Shown: positions 2,153 through 25,763 of the stretch, piece after piece
Layout of the letters: every line of letters begins with the position of its first letter
Numbering within the stretch: position 1 is the first letter of the stretch
Assembly: GCA_025057115.1 (NCBI GenBank)
Contig: JANWWZ010000003.1
Coordinates: forward strand, 62,001-126,000
Source of the DNA: Bernardetiaceae bacterium
GTDB lineage: Bacteria > Bacteroidota > Bacteroidia > Cytophagales > Thermoflexibacteraceae
Direction of reading: 5' to 3'
DNA: 64,000 nt
Notes under the pieces: model-generated
The model's database searches: none
Told to the model about the DNA's origin: nothing
Seen by the model: only the letters and a program-made list of their open reading frames with translations
Translations under genes and position numbers: made by a program

Positions 2153-2677
2153 TCAGTGAGGCAACTTGTCGCGTAAAAAGCCATACACCCACGTACCTAA
2201 AATGGCGCTCAGTAGGGTAATGAGTATTACTGTAGCTCCCGTGCCAATTTGTGCGTAAAGCGGTCCAGGACAGGCTCCAGTCATTCCCCAACCTAGCCCA
2301 AAAATGATTCCGCCGATAATTTGTCCTTTGTTAAATTTTTTAGGCTGCAGCGTAATTGGTTCTCCATCTATTGTTTTGATTTTGAATTTTTTAATTAACC
2401 ACACACTAAGCATTCCCACTGCTACCGCACTACCAATTACTCCATACATGTGGAACGACTCTAGCCTAAACATTTCTTGAATGCGAAACCAACTTATTAT
2501 TTCGGCTTTAACGAATAAGATGCCGAAAATCATCCCCACTGCCATGTATTTGAGGTTGCTATACCACTTTTGTTCAACTTGGCTCGTGTTGACGCACATG
2601 GCATCTAGCGAGCGTACCTCAAAATCATGGTTTTCTACAATTGTCGTTTGTTTTTCTTGTACGTTTTGCTCTATCAT
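2153..2677 (-). CDS. YeeE/YedE-type membrane protein (DUF6691-like), C-terminal half
   Basis: A 174-residue integral membrane protein with about four hydrophobic segments. It carries the GMTGACPGP motif, which holds one of the conserved cysteines of the YeeE/YedE thiosulfate and sulfur-compound transporters. Its partner upstream (2706-3275) carries the other motif, GGCTSGH. In Bacteroidota the transporter is commonly split into two such half-size proteins, and these two very probably form one transporter. It is the last gene of a minus-strand run that also holds thioredoxin and rhodanese genes. The 45-residue hydrophilic N-terminus is cytoplasmic or poorly conserved. The exact substrate (thiosulfate, persulfide or another sulfur species) is not visible from sequence. 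Confidence 0.88.
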   Translation of the reverse strand: MIEQNVQEKQTTIVENHDFEVRSLDAMCVNTSQVEQKWYSNLKYMAVGMIFGILFVKAEIISWFRIQEMFRLESFHMYGVIGSAVAVGMLSVWLIKKFKIKTIDGEPITLQPKKFNKGQIIGGIIFGLGWGMTGACPGPLYAQIGTGATVILITLLSAILGTWVYGFLRDKLPH

Positions 2678-2705: not shown

Positions 2706-3275
2706 TTATAAAGCTAGAATGTAAGGCAGTATCAAATGTACCATTGCAAAACCACCCACCATAAAAGAGATGGTAGCAATTAGGGAGGGAAGTTGTAAAT
2801 TAGAAAGTCCCATAATGGAATGTCCGCTGGTACATCCTCCTGCATAACGCGTTCCGAAACCCACCATAAAGCCACCCACTACCATTAGGATAAACCCGCG
2901 CCACGTGGAGAGCGCTTTCCAGTTAAATAGTTGTAATGGCACCAGATGGCTGTAATCAGTAATTCCGTATTTTGCTAAGTCGTTTGCCAAATTCTCATGG
3001 ACCTTGATAGGCTCGGGATTAGGCAACAATACAATCGCAATGATGCTACCTATCAAAATGCCAGCTACGAAAAACAAGTTCCACGCCTCTTTTTTCCAGT
3101 CGTACTTAAAGAAAGGAATGTTAGCTGGCATACAGGCTGCACAGATGTGCCGCAGTGAAGAAGAAATGCCAAAGGACTTGTTACCTAAAATCAACAAGGT
3201 AGGTACCGTCAAACCAATTAATGGACCTGCTACATACCACGGCCACGGTTGTTTAAGTACTTCAAGCGGATTCAT
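2706..3275 (-). CDS. YeeE/YedE family membrane protein, N-terminal half
   Basis: A 189-residue membrane protein with about four or five hydrophobic spans and the conserved motif [13 protein letters not shown] near residue 145. The Cys is a substrate-relay residue in the thiosulfate transporter family. A CAACMP motif near residue 45 adds two more cysteines. I start it at the ATG at 3275 (MNPLEVL). The open frame continues upstream to 3374, but that extension overlaps the trxA coding region and has no membrane or family character. It is paired with the DUF6691-like gene just downstream (28-bp gap). Both are probably co-transcribed with trxA and the rhodanese gene. Confidence 0.87.
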
Positions 3276-3298
3276 ATTCAATGAAAATTGAAAACTTT

Positions 3299-3604
3299 TT
3301 ACGCGTTTTGTTGAGTAAATTGGCGAATTACTCGCAGTAGTTCGTGTTTGGGCACTACTCCTGCTTGTCGCCACAATTCTTTTCCATTTTTAAATAACAT
3401 TAAAGTAGGTACTCCTCTAATGTGGTAGGCTTGTGCAGCAAGCGGATTTTTATCCACATCTACCTTTACAATTTTCACGGTTTCGCCTACTTCTTCTTTT
3501 ACCTCTTCTAGAATAGGTGCCATCATTTTACATGGCATGCACCATGTAGCAAAAAAATCTACCAACACAGGCTTATCACTTCTAATGAGTTCGCTAAAGG
3601 TCAT
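3299..3604 (-). CDS. trxA: Thioredoxin
   Basis: A 101-residue cytoplasmic thiol-disulfide oxidoreductase. The active site is W21-C22-M-P-C25, where the canonical sequence is WCGPC, and the cis-Pro loop GVPT is present near residue 64. The length matches classical thioredoxin and there is no export signal. It lies between a rhodanese and two YeeE-type transporter halves, so it probably reduces persulfides or rhodanese-bound sulfur rather than serving as the housekeeping thioredoxin. That role is inferred from context. The Met in place of Gly in the active-site dipeptide would be expected to alter its redox potential. Confidence 0.93.
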   Translation of the reverse strand: MTFSELIRSDKPVLVDFFATWCMPCKMMAPILEEVKEEVGETVKIVKVDVDKNPLAAQAYHIRGVPTLMLFKNGKELWRQAGVVPKHELLRVIRQFTQQNA

Positions 3605-3623: not shown

Positions 3624-3992
3624 TCACTGATTGACTAACGCATTCACATTTTGCCAAGTTCCTCCGTTGATAACATTGGTGAAACCATGTTGCTCAAGGA
3701 TAGCTTTGGCTTTACTGCTGCGGTTGCCGCTTCGGCAGAATACCACGATGTGCTTTTTGCCTTTAAAGGCATTTAACTGTTTTTCTATCTGGTCTAAAGG
3801 TATATTGACTGCTCCTTTAGCAGACCCCTCTGCAAATTCTGCGGGGGTGCGTACATCTACTAAAAAAGCTCCTTCTTCAATAGCTGCCTTTAGTGTCTTG
3901 TCTTCAGACTGTCCAAATAGATTTTTAAACAAGCTAAACATGACTATGATAACTATTGTGAAAATGCTTGCTAAAATTAGATGGCGCTGCAT
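3624..3992 (-). CDS. Membrane-anchored single-domain rhodanese
   Basis: A 122-residue protein with one N-terminal membrane span (about residues 5-25) followed by a single rhodanese domain. The active-site loop is C-R-S-G-N-R-S (Cys near residue 86), the usual loop of sulfur-transferring single-domain rhodaneses, and the DVRTPAEF motif is intact. It presumably transfers sulfane sulfur to or from thiols at the membrane, next to the thioredoxin and YeeE-type transporter genes downstream. Upstream lies its own candidate promoter (4008-4015) with a Crp/Fnr-type dyad (4038-4052), so it probably heads the rhodanese-trxA-yeeE-yeeE operon. Confidence 0.93.
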   Translation of the reverse strand: MQRHLILASIFTIVIIVMFSLFKNLFGQSEDKTLKAAIEEGAFLVDVRTPAEFAEGSAKGAVNIPLDQIEKQLNAFKGKKHIVVFCRSGNRSSKAKAILEQHGFTNVINGGTWQNVNALVNQ

Positions 3993-4007: not shown

Positions 4008-4015
4008 CAAAAGTA
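4008..4015 (-). promoter_or_regulatory. -7 element of the rhodanese-trxA-yeeE operon
   Basis: On the minus strand TACTTTTG matches TAnnTTTG perfectly. It lies 15 bases before the rhodanese ATG and exactly 22 bp downstream of the dyad at 4038-4052. Confidence 0.6.
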
Positions 4016-4037: not shown

Positions 4038-4052
4038 GTTACTTTAGTTACA
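4038..4052 (-). promoter_or_regulatory. Candidate Crp/Fnr-type operator upstream of the rhodanese gene
   Basis: The minus strand reads TGTAACTAAAGTAAC. The core has dyad symmetry of the form GTnACTnnAGTnAC. The same 15-mer occurs upstream of tauE at 4907-4921. The spacing to the -7 box is 22 bp, placing the dyad centre near -41.5 from the predicted transcript start. This is a typical activator position for the Crp/Fnr family. Confidence 0.6.
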
Positions 4053-4064
4053 CAAGGCTTGTTA

Positions 4065-4862
4065 TCAGGCAAATAAGGTTTCTTTCACGATGATGTAAAT
4101 TCCCATTACTAGTACAAACCAGCCGAAAGCAGGTTTGAGTTTTTTGCCATCGATGCGTCGAGAAAGGGCTGCTCCTATAAAAATACCGCCTATGGCAAAG
4201 GCAGAAATCTGTAGTAAAAAACCCCAGTTGATAATAGTTTCACTACTTTCGCCAAAAAAACCAATGAGGGATTTGGCAGCAATGATAACCAGCGAAGTCC
4301 CGACGGCTTCTTTCATAGGTAGCCTGCTCAACACTACAAGCGCTGGAATAATCAAAAAACCTCCTCCTGCCCCCACAAGTCCTGTAAGTACGCCTACTAC
4401 TAATCCTTCCAGCAGGATCATCGGATACTTAAACTTTTGTTTGCCTGTTATTTCCACTGATGGAGTAGTATCCTTTTTAATCATGCTGTAGGAGGCAGCA
4501 ATCATGAGGATTGCAAAAAGTACCATTAGTAATATGTTTTTGGTAACGGTGAAGCTACCAACAGAGAATACTTCCTTAGGAATAGCTGGAACAATGTAAG
4601 CACGAGTGAAGAACACAGCAACAATAGAGGGAATGCCAAATACAATAGCAGTGCGAATATTGACTAATCCCTTGCGAAAGTATTCAAAAGAACCTACCGC
4701 ACTGGTCAAACCCACAATAAAGAGAGAGTATGCAGTAGCAGTGACAGCATCAACGGTAAACAAATACACCAGTACAGGAACGGTGAGAATGCTACCGCCT
4801 CCTCCAATTAACCCTAGCGAAATACCTATGAGAATAGAAGCTAAGTAGCCGACGTATTCCAT
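4065..4862 (-). CDS. TSUP-family sulfite/sulfonate exporter (TauE/SafE)
   Basis: A 265-residue membrane protein with about eight hydrophobic spans and the two internally repeated glycine-rich motifs of the TSUP family (GLIGGGGSILTVP near residue 18 and GLVGAGGGFLIIP near residue 160). Members export sulfite, sulfoacetate or related oxyanions. Its position between a Crp/Fnr regulator and a rhodanese-thioredoxin-YeeE operon fits removal of oxidised sulfur. A Crp/Fnr-type dyad at 4907-4921 and a -7-like box at 4877-4884 lie directly upstream, so it can be transcribed separately from the regulator gene. Confidence 0.93.
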   Translation of the reverse strand: MEYVGYLASILIGISLGLIGGGGSILTVPVLVYLFTVDAVTATAYSLFIVGLTSAVGSFEYFRKGLVNIRTAIVFGIPSIVAVFFTRAYIVPAIPKEVFSVGSFTVTKNILLMVLFAILMIAASYSMIKKDTTPSVEITGKQKFKYPMILLEGLVVGVLTGLVGAGGGFLIIPALVVLSRLPMKEAVGTSLVIIAAKSLIGFFGESSETIINWGFLLQISAFAIGGIFIGAALSRRIDGKKLKPAFGWFVLVMGIYIIVKETLFA

Positions 4863-4876
4863 CTACATTTTTTTCG

Positions 4877-4884
4877 CAAATTTG
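4877..4884 (-). promoter_or_regulatory. -7-like element of tauE
   Basis: CAAATTTG differs from TAnnTTTG only at the first base. It lies 14 bases before the tauE ATG and exactly 22 bp from the dyad at 4907-4921, the same spacing as at the rhodanese promoter. Confidence 0.45.
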
Positions 4885-4906: not shown

Positions 4907-4921
4907 GTTACTTTAGTTACA
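4907..4921 (-). promoter_or_regulatory. Candidate Crp/Fnr-type operator upstream of tauE
   Basis: The minus strand reads TGTAACTAAAGTAAC, identical over all 15 bases to the site at 4038-4052. It overlaps the last codon and stop codon of the crp-type gene, so regulator coding sequence and operator share bases. The distance to the tauE start (44 nt) is nearly the same as at the rhodanese gene (45 nt). Confidence 0.6.
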
Positions 4922-5540
4922 GAACAACAATGCGATTGCGGCCAAGTTGTACTACTCCATTCTCTTCTAACCTTTTCAACAAACGCGATACTACTACGCG
5001 AGCAGTACCTAACTCATTGGCAAGTTGTTCATGGGAAACATGTAATACCTTGCTTCCTGTAAGAGCTACTTTCCGATTGAGTAAAGAAACGAGGCGCTCA
5101 TCCACCTTGTGGAAAGCTATTTCATTGATAATTTGCAATAACTCCTCAAAACGCTTGTGGTAAAGTCGAAAGATGTATTCTAACCAGTCGGGAAACTCTT
5201 TAACCAGTAGCAGTGCCTTATCTAAAGGAAGAAAGAGAATTTCTGCATCTTCTTCTACTTCTGCTCGTACTTTGCTTTTTTCGTTGTGAATTCCTCCCAG
5301 TAACGACATGATGCAACTCTCACCCGCTCTAAGATAGTAAAGTAATATTTCTCGACCATCCTCCTCTGAGCGAATGACCCGCACACTTCCTTCCACTACA
5401 ATGGGAATGGCTTTCATGTAAGCATTTTCTCTTAAAATTACCTCTCCCGCTTTATAGTGCTTAATTTTGCTGTATTCATATAATTTAGCCGTTAAAGCAG
5501 GTGAAGACTTAAATGCAGAAATGCTTTCTGATTCGTGCAT
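4917..5540 (-). CDS. Crp/Fnr-family transcriptional regulator
   Basis: A 207-residue regulator with an N-terminal cyclic-nucleotide-type beta-roll (about 20-115), a long dimerisation helix (about 117-145) and a C-terminal winged helix (about 148-205). The recognition helix reads G-T-A-R181-V182-V-V-S-R186. Val182 aligns with E. coli CRP Glu181, and many Bacteroidota relatives have Glu here. There is no N-terminal Cys cluster as in FNR, so a [4Fe-4S] sensor is unlikely; single Cys76 is the only cysteine I see, so a thiol or persulfide switch is possible but unproven. The gene sits directly upstream of tauE and the sulfur operon and is the natural candidate for the TGTAAC sites there. An imperfect -7 match (TTATTTTG, 5563-5570) precedes it. 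Confidence 0.93.
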   Translation of the reverse strand: MHESESISAFKSSPALTAKLYEYSKIKHYKAGEVILRENAYMKAIPIVVEGSVRVIRSEEDGREILLYYLRAGESCIMSLLGGIHNEKSKVRAEVEEDAEILFLPLDKALLLVKEFPDWLEYIFRLYHKRFEELLQIINEIAFHKVDERLVSLLNRKVALTGSKVLHVSHEQLANELGTARVVVSRLLKRLEENGVVQLGRNRIVVL

Positions 5541-25292: not shown

Positions 25293-25308
25293 TGTAACTT
25301 TTGTTACA
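25293..25308 (+). promoter_or_regulatory. Candidate Crp/Fnr-type operator upstream of the DUF983 gene
   Basis: TGTAACTTTTGTTACA is a perfect 6-bp inverted repeat with a 4-base centre. Written on the plus strand it shares 13 of 15 bases with the sites at 4038 and 4907. From the end of the homologous 15-mer (25307) to a -7-like box at 25330-25337 there are 22 bp, the same spacing as at the two sulfur-cluster promoters. It begins 2 bases after the iaaA stop codon. Confidence 0.6.
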
Positions 25309-25370: not shown

Positions 25371-25763
25371 ATGGCAATAGGTTATTGGCAAGCGCTGTTT
25401 TCGGGGAAATGTCCGCGTTGCCGCAAAGGAAATATCTATAAGCACAGTCTCTTTCAACCGCTTAAGTTTACTCAGATGCATTCGCATTGTCCAGTGTGCG
25501 GTCTCAAGTACGAGGTAGAGCCAGGCTTTTTTTATGGCGCAATGTACGTGGGATATGCCATTAGTGTGGCTACGGTCATTTCGGTTTTTACTGCTATCAA
25601 TATTCTCTATCCCAAAGCAAGTCTAACTACTTATATTGTCTCAATTATCGCCGCCCTTCTGTTAATGATACCCATCAATTTTCGCTATTCGCGCATCATG
25701 ATGCTTTATTTTTTCGGAGGAGTAAAATATCAACCTGACTTAATAGAGAAAAAAACGATTTAA
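25371..25763 (+). CDS. DUF983 family membrane protein with two CxxC motifs
   Basis: A 130-residue protein. The N-terminal half has two CxxC pairs, C-P-R-C near residue 15 and C-P-V-C near 42, likely a zinc ribbon. Two membrane spans follow (about 58-80 and 87-107). This is the layout of DUF983. From memory, a DUF983 gene lies in cytochrome c oxidase operons of several alphaproteobacteria, but the function is unknown. The start is ATG 25371; the frame extends to a TTG at 25335 inside the predicted -7 box, so that start can be excluded if the promoter is real. Confidence 0.85.
   Translation: MAIGYWQALFSGKCPRCRKGNIYKHSLFQPLKFTQMHSHCPVCGLKYEVEPGFFYGAMYVGYAISVATVISVFTAINILYPKASLTTYIVSIIAALLLMIPINFRYSRIMMLYFFGGVKYQPDLIEKKTI

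Follow-up and report, generated by a model that had tools for sequence, protein, structure and literature searches.

The window, by which we mean the whole stretch of 64,000 nucleotides that was analysed, comes from a Bernardetiaceae bacterium whose genome measures 3.0 Mb in 86 contigs. It contains a gene for a Crp/Fnr-type regulator that is followed on the same strand by a cassette of sulfur-related genes, and these features are as follows.

4917..5540, minus strand: Crp/Fnr-type regulator, 207 amino acids (open reading frame, Pfam matches, orthologs)
5313..5315, minus strand: codon of Cys76, the sole Cys of the regulator, in a GESC motif (sequence and alignment)
4992..5000, minus strand: codons Arg181-Val182-Val183, CGC GTA GTA (position computed from the open reading frame and checked on the sequence)
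4065..4862, minus strand: TauE/SafE-type exporter (open reading frame and profile match)
3624..3992, minus strand: rhodanese-domain protein (open reading frame and profile match)
3299..3604, minus strand: thioredoxin (open reading frame and profile matches)
2706..3374, minus strand: YeeE/YedE-type half (Pfam Sulf_transp), also with a weak match to the thiosulfate transporter TsuA that lies below the TsuA cut-off
2153..2677, minus strand: second YeeE/YedE-type half (Sulf_transp, DUF6691; open reading frame and profile matches)

The regulator and its gene neighbourhood

The regulator consists of a cNMP-binding-like domain (residues 27-110) and a Crp-type helix-turn-helix (HTH) domain (residues 149-207). 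Its matches to Pfam cNMP_binding (PF00027), HTH_Crp_2 (PF13545) and Crp (PF00325) are all above cut-off and place it in the Crp/Fnr superfamily. It is not a member of the cAMP-type CRP group, as it scores 62.3 bits against the NCBIfam CRP equivalog PRK11753 with a cut-off of 266, nor is it an NtcA protein, with 37.4 bits against TIGR03697 and a cut-off of 244.95. Among named relatives the closest, with 87% and 86% identity, come from a Bernardetiaceae MAG and an uncultured Cytophagales MAG, respectively.

The recognition helix region of the regulator reads GTARVVVSRLLKRLEE, where R is residue 181 and V is residue 182, and the HTH can be aligned free of gaps with the Pfam profile, with PDB chain 3dv8 and with the NtcA PDB chains. 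The base-contacting residues of E. coli CRP are Arg180, Glu181 and Arg185 (PMC12531629, in excerpt). Since the R-x-x-x-[SG]-R frame is kept in the window regulator, Val182 occupies the position of CRP Glu181. The original prediction was thus right in this assignment and in its helix numbering, as well as in the coordinates and strand of the 207-residue reading frame.

Judged by its gene content, the downstream cassette looks suited to sulfane sulfur or sulfite-like compounds. When 75 loci were compared with the proteins of the window, many orthologs were likewise found to have rhodanese, thioredoxin, TauE or YeeE/YedE genes downstream, and some loci, for example L041, L049, L051 and L084, had no cassette gene at all. 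Cys76 is invariant, being present in all 244 orthologs and in all 75 more distant relatives (319 of 319 rows). The type of cassette together with this invariant residue makes a reactive sulfur signal the first guess for the effector. The nearest PDB chain, 3dv8, which falls outside the regulator's group, also has a Cys at this position, so that Cys76 alone is no proof of sulfur sensing. From these sequence features we infer that the regulator probably senses a sulfur species and that it perhaps does so via Cys76.

Predicted operators and promoter geometry

A pattern scan of the window located two candidate operators, each in front of a cassette gene and each followed by a promoter-like box. 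Bases are counted from the first T of the operator, which is base 1.

4907..4921, minus strand: operator 1 (predicted), TGTAACTAAAGTAAC, before the TauE-like gene
4877..4884, minus strand: -7 box CAAATTTG, bases 38-45 counted from operator 1 (box as defined in PMC9723704)
4038..4052, minus strand: operator 2 (predicted), TGTAACTAAAGTAAC, before the rhodanese gene
4008..4015, minus strand: -7 box TACTTTTG, a full TAnnTTTG, bases 38-45 from operator 2

Operator 1 ends 44 bp before the TauE start codon and operator 2 ends 45 bp before the rhodanese start codon, and the left half of operator 1, TGTAA, ends in the regulator's own TAA stop codon (4917-4919). Exact matches to GTWACTNNAGTWAC occur only twice in the window, at 4038-4051 and 4907-4920, and both read GTTACTTTAGTTAC. 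When up to two mismatches are allowed the window holds 18 matches against a shuffle mean of 8.2, a number that was reached in 1 of 100 shuffles. The symmetric pattern TGTAAN6TTACA shows no enrichment: at two mismatches or fewer the window contains 56 matches, where a mean of 44.6 is expected, and both operators need two mismatches to fit it. The earlier description of these operators as TGTAA half-sites applies to one half of each; the other half, read on its own strand, is GTTAC with T at the base in question. A de novo scan of 52 Val loci that took in upstream stretches too returned GTAAC-N4-GTTAC as its top dyad, in 23 loci against 0.4 in shuffles.

The motif TAnnTTTG is a promoter box at -12 to -5 in a flavobacterium (PMC9723704, in excerpt). 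A box at this location would centre both dyads of the window at -41.5, which is the position of a class II activator. In the relatives described below the TTTG starts at base 42 in 204 of 230 sites, as it does in both window promoters, and because the sites were chosen blind to the box region this spacing is an independent sign of real promoter elements. The position of the site relative to the -7 box is a comparative result, from which transcription starts 10 and 11 nt before the TauE and rhodanese start codons would be predicted.

Relatives and their sites

Relatives were drawn from whole genomes, named contigs and gene neighbourhoods, with orthologs defined as scoring 200 bits or more against a panel of five proteins and more distant relatives as scoring below that. 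Duplicates with identical C-terminal 150 or 120 residues were removed. This left 322 distinct proteins, which were reduced to 319 rows by taking out one protein without an aligned residue 182 and two fragments shorter than 150 amino acids (L009 and L130, both of which have Glu and a G-containing site). Residue 182 is Val in 193, Glu in 38, Ala in 6, Thr in 5 and Ser in 2 of the 244 orthologs, and it is Glu in 47 and Val in 30 of 77 more distant relatives. The family of genome G083 yielded an ortholog in only 1 of 349 genomes. Three close orthologs (L194, L213 and L214) lie on contigs titled Candidatus Planktophila or uncultured Chlorobiales, which may reflect mis-binning or transfer.

Sites were sought near the regulator stop codon with the pattern TGTNAN6TNRC, which is blind to the tested base in both halves. 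An initial version with TNAC as its right half, which matched in 52 of 139 Val loci, was widened to TNRC after the sequences had been viewed; the pattern was thus refined on part of the data, though at no time at the tested base. With the final pattern a site lies beside the regulator gene in 230 of the 319 rows, with 89 rows lacking one by this definition. Among the orthologs, sites were found in 162 of 193 Val rows and in 32 of 38 Glu rows, where shuffled sequences predict 14.6 and 2.9 matches, respectively. Upstream of the genes of distant relatives, sites occur at close to the chance rate, with 4 against 3.6 expected for Val proteins (two with G) and 6 against 3.2 expected for Glu proteins (four with G in both halves, one palindrome being counted twice), and so these relatives provide no case for autoregulation.

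Residue 182 and the key base

In the set of 319 rows, 168 of the 173 Val rows with a site lack G at the key base on both sides of the dyad. Of the 46 Glu rows with a site, 42 show G on one side or both, as do 6 of the 11 rows with Thr, Ser or Ala. The same rule is seen among the distant relatives alone (below 200 bits), where on the regulator strand G occurs in none of 19 Val rows as compared to 13 of 14 Glu rows, and where a count of both strands, with palindromes counted twice, gives G in 0 of 24 Val sites as compared to 17 of 19 Glu sites. Most of the signal resides in the right half, which has G in 38 of 46 Glu rows versus 5 of 173 Val rows.

The original prediction had paired Val with TGTAA and Glu with TGTGA. 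A TGTAA left half turned out to be common to both, as it is present in 98% of Val sites and also in 78% of Glu sites, and we have rejected it as a signature of Val; what does separate the two groups is whether either half contains a G, as is the case for 42 of 46 Glu rows but for just 5 of 173 Val rows. In 36 of 46 Glu sites just one of the two halves carries G, which a symmetric reading of the operator does not predict. A strict pairing of Val with A fares no better, since the right-half key base of the 162 Val ortholog sites is T in 107, A in 33, C in 16 and G in 6. Val is paired with the absence of G rather than with A alone.

Replacement of Glu181 in CRP by Val, Leu or Lys gives altered-specificity phenotypes. 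The central idea of the prediction, that Val182 and its operators fit each other in the manner of these mutants, is strongly supported by the covariation of Val and Glu with the key base. Taking a Val at this position together with sites that lack G as the mark of a natural altered specificity of the Val181 type, both the window operators and 168 of 173 Val rows bear it. As a natural case it is not singular, for Val is the usual residue in orthologs (193 of 244) and also occurs in NtcA and CprK.

Relatives with Val and G-containing sites, which would speak against the pairing, do exist but are few (5 of 173). They comprise L106, with G in both halves, and L117, L122, L125 and L181, with G in one half. 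L203, a further Val protein with a G half among the ortholog matches, owes its site, at +355, probably to a chance match. The Glu proteins without G are L054, L070 (on a long branch), L180 and L315. L180 represents a reversal to Glu with a Val-type site, which indicates that the residue is able to change without the site.

Overlap of the operator with the stop codon

As in operator 1, the final three bases of the left half double as the regulator stop codon in 150 of the 205 sites found in orthologs (Val 114 of 162, Glu 27 of 32, and Thr, Ser or Ala 9 of 11), and this overlap ties the choice of stop codon to the sequence of the operator. The overlapping stop codon is TGA, giving a TGTGA half, in 6 of the 9 Thr, Ser or Ala proteins versus none of the 114 Val proteins. 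About five substitutions from Val to a small residue have occurred, as judged by eye on a weakly supported ortholog tree.

Discrimination at this base is lost in the Val181 and Leu181 mutants of CRP. One may thus ask if Val182 is simply non-discriminating, with A or T being set by DNA bending, by the TAA stop codon or by the AT-richness of promoters. The mixed right halves of Val ortholog sites fit such a reading, as does the fact that 114 of their 162 left halves overlap a TAA stop codon. However, G is also rare in those left halves of Val ortholog sites that are free of the stop codon (1 of 48), and its complete absence downstream of the regulator in the 19 rows of distant Val relatives makes it rarer than indifference predicts. 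We regard an indifferent Val182 as the less likely reading.

Covariation on the phylogeny

A tree of 181 orthologs was built with the tested column left out. On this tree Glu proteins form a basal grade and Val proteins a large derived clade, inside of which there is one reversal to Glu (L180, L209) as well as several changes to Thr, Ser and Ala, with many inner branches weakly supported. The distribution of Val and Glu in orthologs amounts to roughly one deep split plus the L180/L209 reversal. On the joint tree, the rows with sites show 15 changes between Val and non-Val and 6 between Val and Glu. Independent pairs across well-supported branches (n = 6) differed in the predicted way in 4.1, in the opposite way in 0.1 and not at all in 1.8 cases on average, with a median p of 0.125; six pairs are too few for a sign test. 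Fisher's test, which ignores relatedness, was not relied on.

A Pagel-type test of correlated evolution gave a likelihood ratio (LR) of 41.1, a value that none of 172 null simulations reached (99% quantile 13.7, maximum 14.7). The LR was 23.4 when only Val and Glu rows were used, and with a tree of the sensor domain only it was 45.8 for all rows and 26.8 for Val and Glu rows. The 33 rows of distant relatives alone gave an LR of 14.8 (p = 0.005).

This correlation is focused on residue 182. In a scan of protein columns on the same tree, which was begun nearest to residue 182 and in which 275 of 335 splits were finished with columns 1-34 not reached, column 182 ranked first of the 275 splits (41.0 for Val against the rest and 23.6 for Glu against the rest), the next column reaching 21.6. 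APC-corrected mutual information between protein columns and 24 DNA positions placed the pair of V182 and base 13, which is the right-half key base, at the top under two of three weightings. Under the remaining one it came second to L207 and base 0, a pair in which the codon overlaps the site. Several pairs, such as S4 and base 13, exceed that of V182 and base 13 in raw mutual information. When protein columns were scored against the G trait, V182 came first at all three weightings, closely followed by T161 and L120. Taken together, the column ranking and the mutual information point, from sequence alone, to the contact made by CRP Glu181.

These results bear on the view that shared ancestry alone is responsible, with Val and G-less sites inherited in the same clades without any direct link. 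Such a view draws on the single deep split in orthologs, on the one reversal having kept a Val-type site and on the low power of the independent-pair tests. It is nonetheless very improbable, given that the more distant relatives follow the rule as well, that the LR of 41.1 lies above the highest of 172 null simulations (14.7) and that residue 182 beats every other finished column on the same tree.

Extent of the predicted regulon

In the organism's own genome, an operator followed by 26 bp and TTTG has three exact matches, which are the two window operators and a site at 25293.

25293..25308, plus strand: possible third operator, a perfect dyad TGTAACTTTTGTTACA with TTTG at bases 42-45, before a DUF983 gene that starts at 25371

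This dyad lies directly after an Asparaginase_2 gene. A similar site precedes a DUF983 gene (L473) of the same-genus genome G003. Exact matches to operator plus -7 box also lie before the TauE gene in the same-genus genomes G001, G002 and G003. In G001 and G002 they additionally precede the rhodanese gene, a gene of the 1-Cys peroxiredoxin type and one for an MFS transporter (the last two being L474, L475, L477 and L478).

Allowing one mismatch raises the number of matches in the own genome to 11 against 10 for a reversed-pattern control, so that it is the exact matches alone that stand out. The operator with box gave 13, 12 and 11 matches with one mismatch in three further genomes of the genus, compared to 19, 29 and 25 for the control, and the short operator pattern with one mismatch is not enriched genome-wide (100 against 425 for the reversed control). 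As matches to operator and box exceed the control by no more than one in any of the four genomes, we have rejected a large regulon as something to be read from sequence alone.

That the dyads belong to another regulator of the same genome and merely lie near this gene is the least probable alternative, one that we consider highly unlikely: the genome does encode one or more further full-length Crp/Fnr proteins, among them the paralog L465, and GTAACnnnnGTTAC is the site of HcpR2 proteins in other organisms (PMC1274295, in excerpt), but the helix of L465 differs (GTVKETAIRV), and from relative to relative the dyad base varies with residue 182 of the protein encoded next to it.

Discussion

We propose that the window regulator is probably a class II activator of the Crp/Fnr type that controls the adjoining sulfur cassette, and that its Val182 has co-changed with the key base of its dyads. 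Comparison yields the covariation and its concentration at residue 182, the position of the site relative to the box, and the gene neighbourhood; DNA binding, activation, the transcription start and sensing are the properties that these would predict. In the proposed mechanism the regulator would bind dyads of the form TGTAAC-N4-GT(A/T)(A/G)C centred at about -41.5 and would thereby activate the TauE, rhodanese, thioredoxin and YeeE/YedE genes. Val182 would be unable to make the cytosine contact of CRP Glu181 and the key base would mostly be A or T, with the sites of Glu relatives retaining G on one side or both. Joint changes of residue and base would have happened more than once.

The chemistry of this position offers a rationale. 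CRP Glu181 uses its carboxylate to contact the cytosine in the G-C pair of TGTGA. A Val cannot accept that hydrogen bond, which would leave the sites of Val proteins with mostly A or T. Glu181 has been placed beside the mutated base (PMC3265434, in excerpt). The CprK counterpart of FNR Glu209 and CRP Glu181 is Val192. It goes with an A-T pair in place of the G-C pair of FNR-type sites, and its contact to the thymine on the other strand is hydrophobic (PMC2610375, in excerpt). A similar contact would explain the A in TGTAA. It does not account for the T in most Val right halves, where loss of discrimination may be the explanation instead; moreover, the CprK Val is said to need a pyrimidine opposite, and the usual right half here has A in that place, which counts against our reading.

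Comparison with known systems shows how far the likeness goes. E. coli CRP (CAP, Glu181/TGTGA) shares with the window regulator a common fold, the R180..R185 frame, the TGTNA-N6-TNACA register and, presumably, the residue-base contact, and the window regulator differs in its natural Val, its invariant sensor-domain Cys and its downstream sulfur cassette. CprK/RdhK of Desulfitobacterium, which uses the dehalobox TTAAT-N4-ATTAA, likewise has Val at the equivalent position, but its preceding residue is His191 rather than Arg, its ligands are chlorophenols and it is distant in sequence (22-23 bits). NtcA of cyanobacteria has the helix RVTVTR with Val at the same position (alignments with PDB 2xgx and 8h3v), and it recognizes GTAN8TAC in nitrogen control by 2-oxoglutarate (PMC3898017, in excerpt); it differs in this control and is likewise distant in sequence (36-37 bits). 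Rodionov 2005 reported that positions 180 and 181 of CRP/FNR proteins correlate with motif bases (PMC1274295, in excerpt). The excerpt names bases G3 and A6, and by count of its consensus the difference between GTAAC and TTGAC falls on the fifth base. The same source describes HcpR2 of Bacteroides and others, which has Pro181 and regulates hcp, the gene for the hybrid cluster protein; its consensus, GTAACnnnnGTTAC, is the same as that of the window regulator, and the correlated position 181 holds Pro and not Val. The specificity of CRP/FNR proteins has been engineered from such correlations (Desai et al. 2009, as cited in PMC5045206, in excerpt).

The recognition principle is therefore already known, with CprK and NtcA as Val members. 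Among the literature matches listed, judged by title and abstract in a search that most subscription papers lay outside of, there was no paper on the Bacteroidota sulfur-cassette Crp/Fnr regulator. What the analysis adds is this regulator, its predicted operators, their fixed promoter geometry, the overlap with the stop codon and a phylogenetically controlled test of the pairing.

For the biology of the Bacteroidota, operators, promoters and a small regulon are now predicted for a sulfur-cassette regulator. For the family, the relatives provide a large, phylogenetically controlled natural data set on recognition of one base by one residue in a textbook protein family, and the classical genetics of CRP Glu181 becomes testable in a natural system. 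It is also possible, though we put it forward tentatively, that the regulator gene holds both ends of the recognition pair, codon 182 and a stop codon within an operator half, that these have coevolved, and that the regulator and its first operator form a self-contained module. If so, the regulator and operator 1 could shift specificity, and be transferred between species, as one unit.
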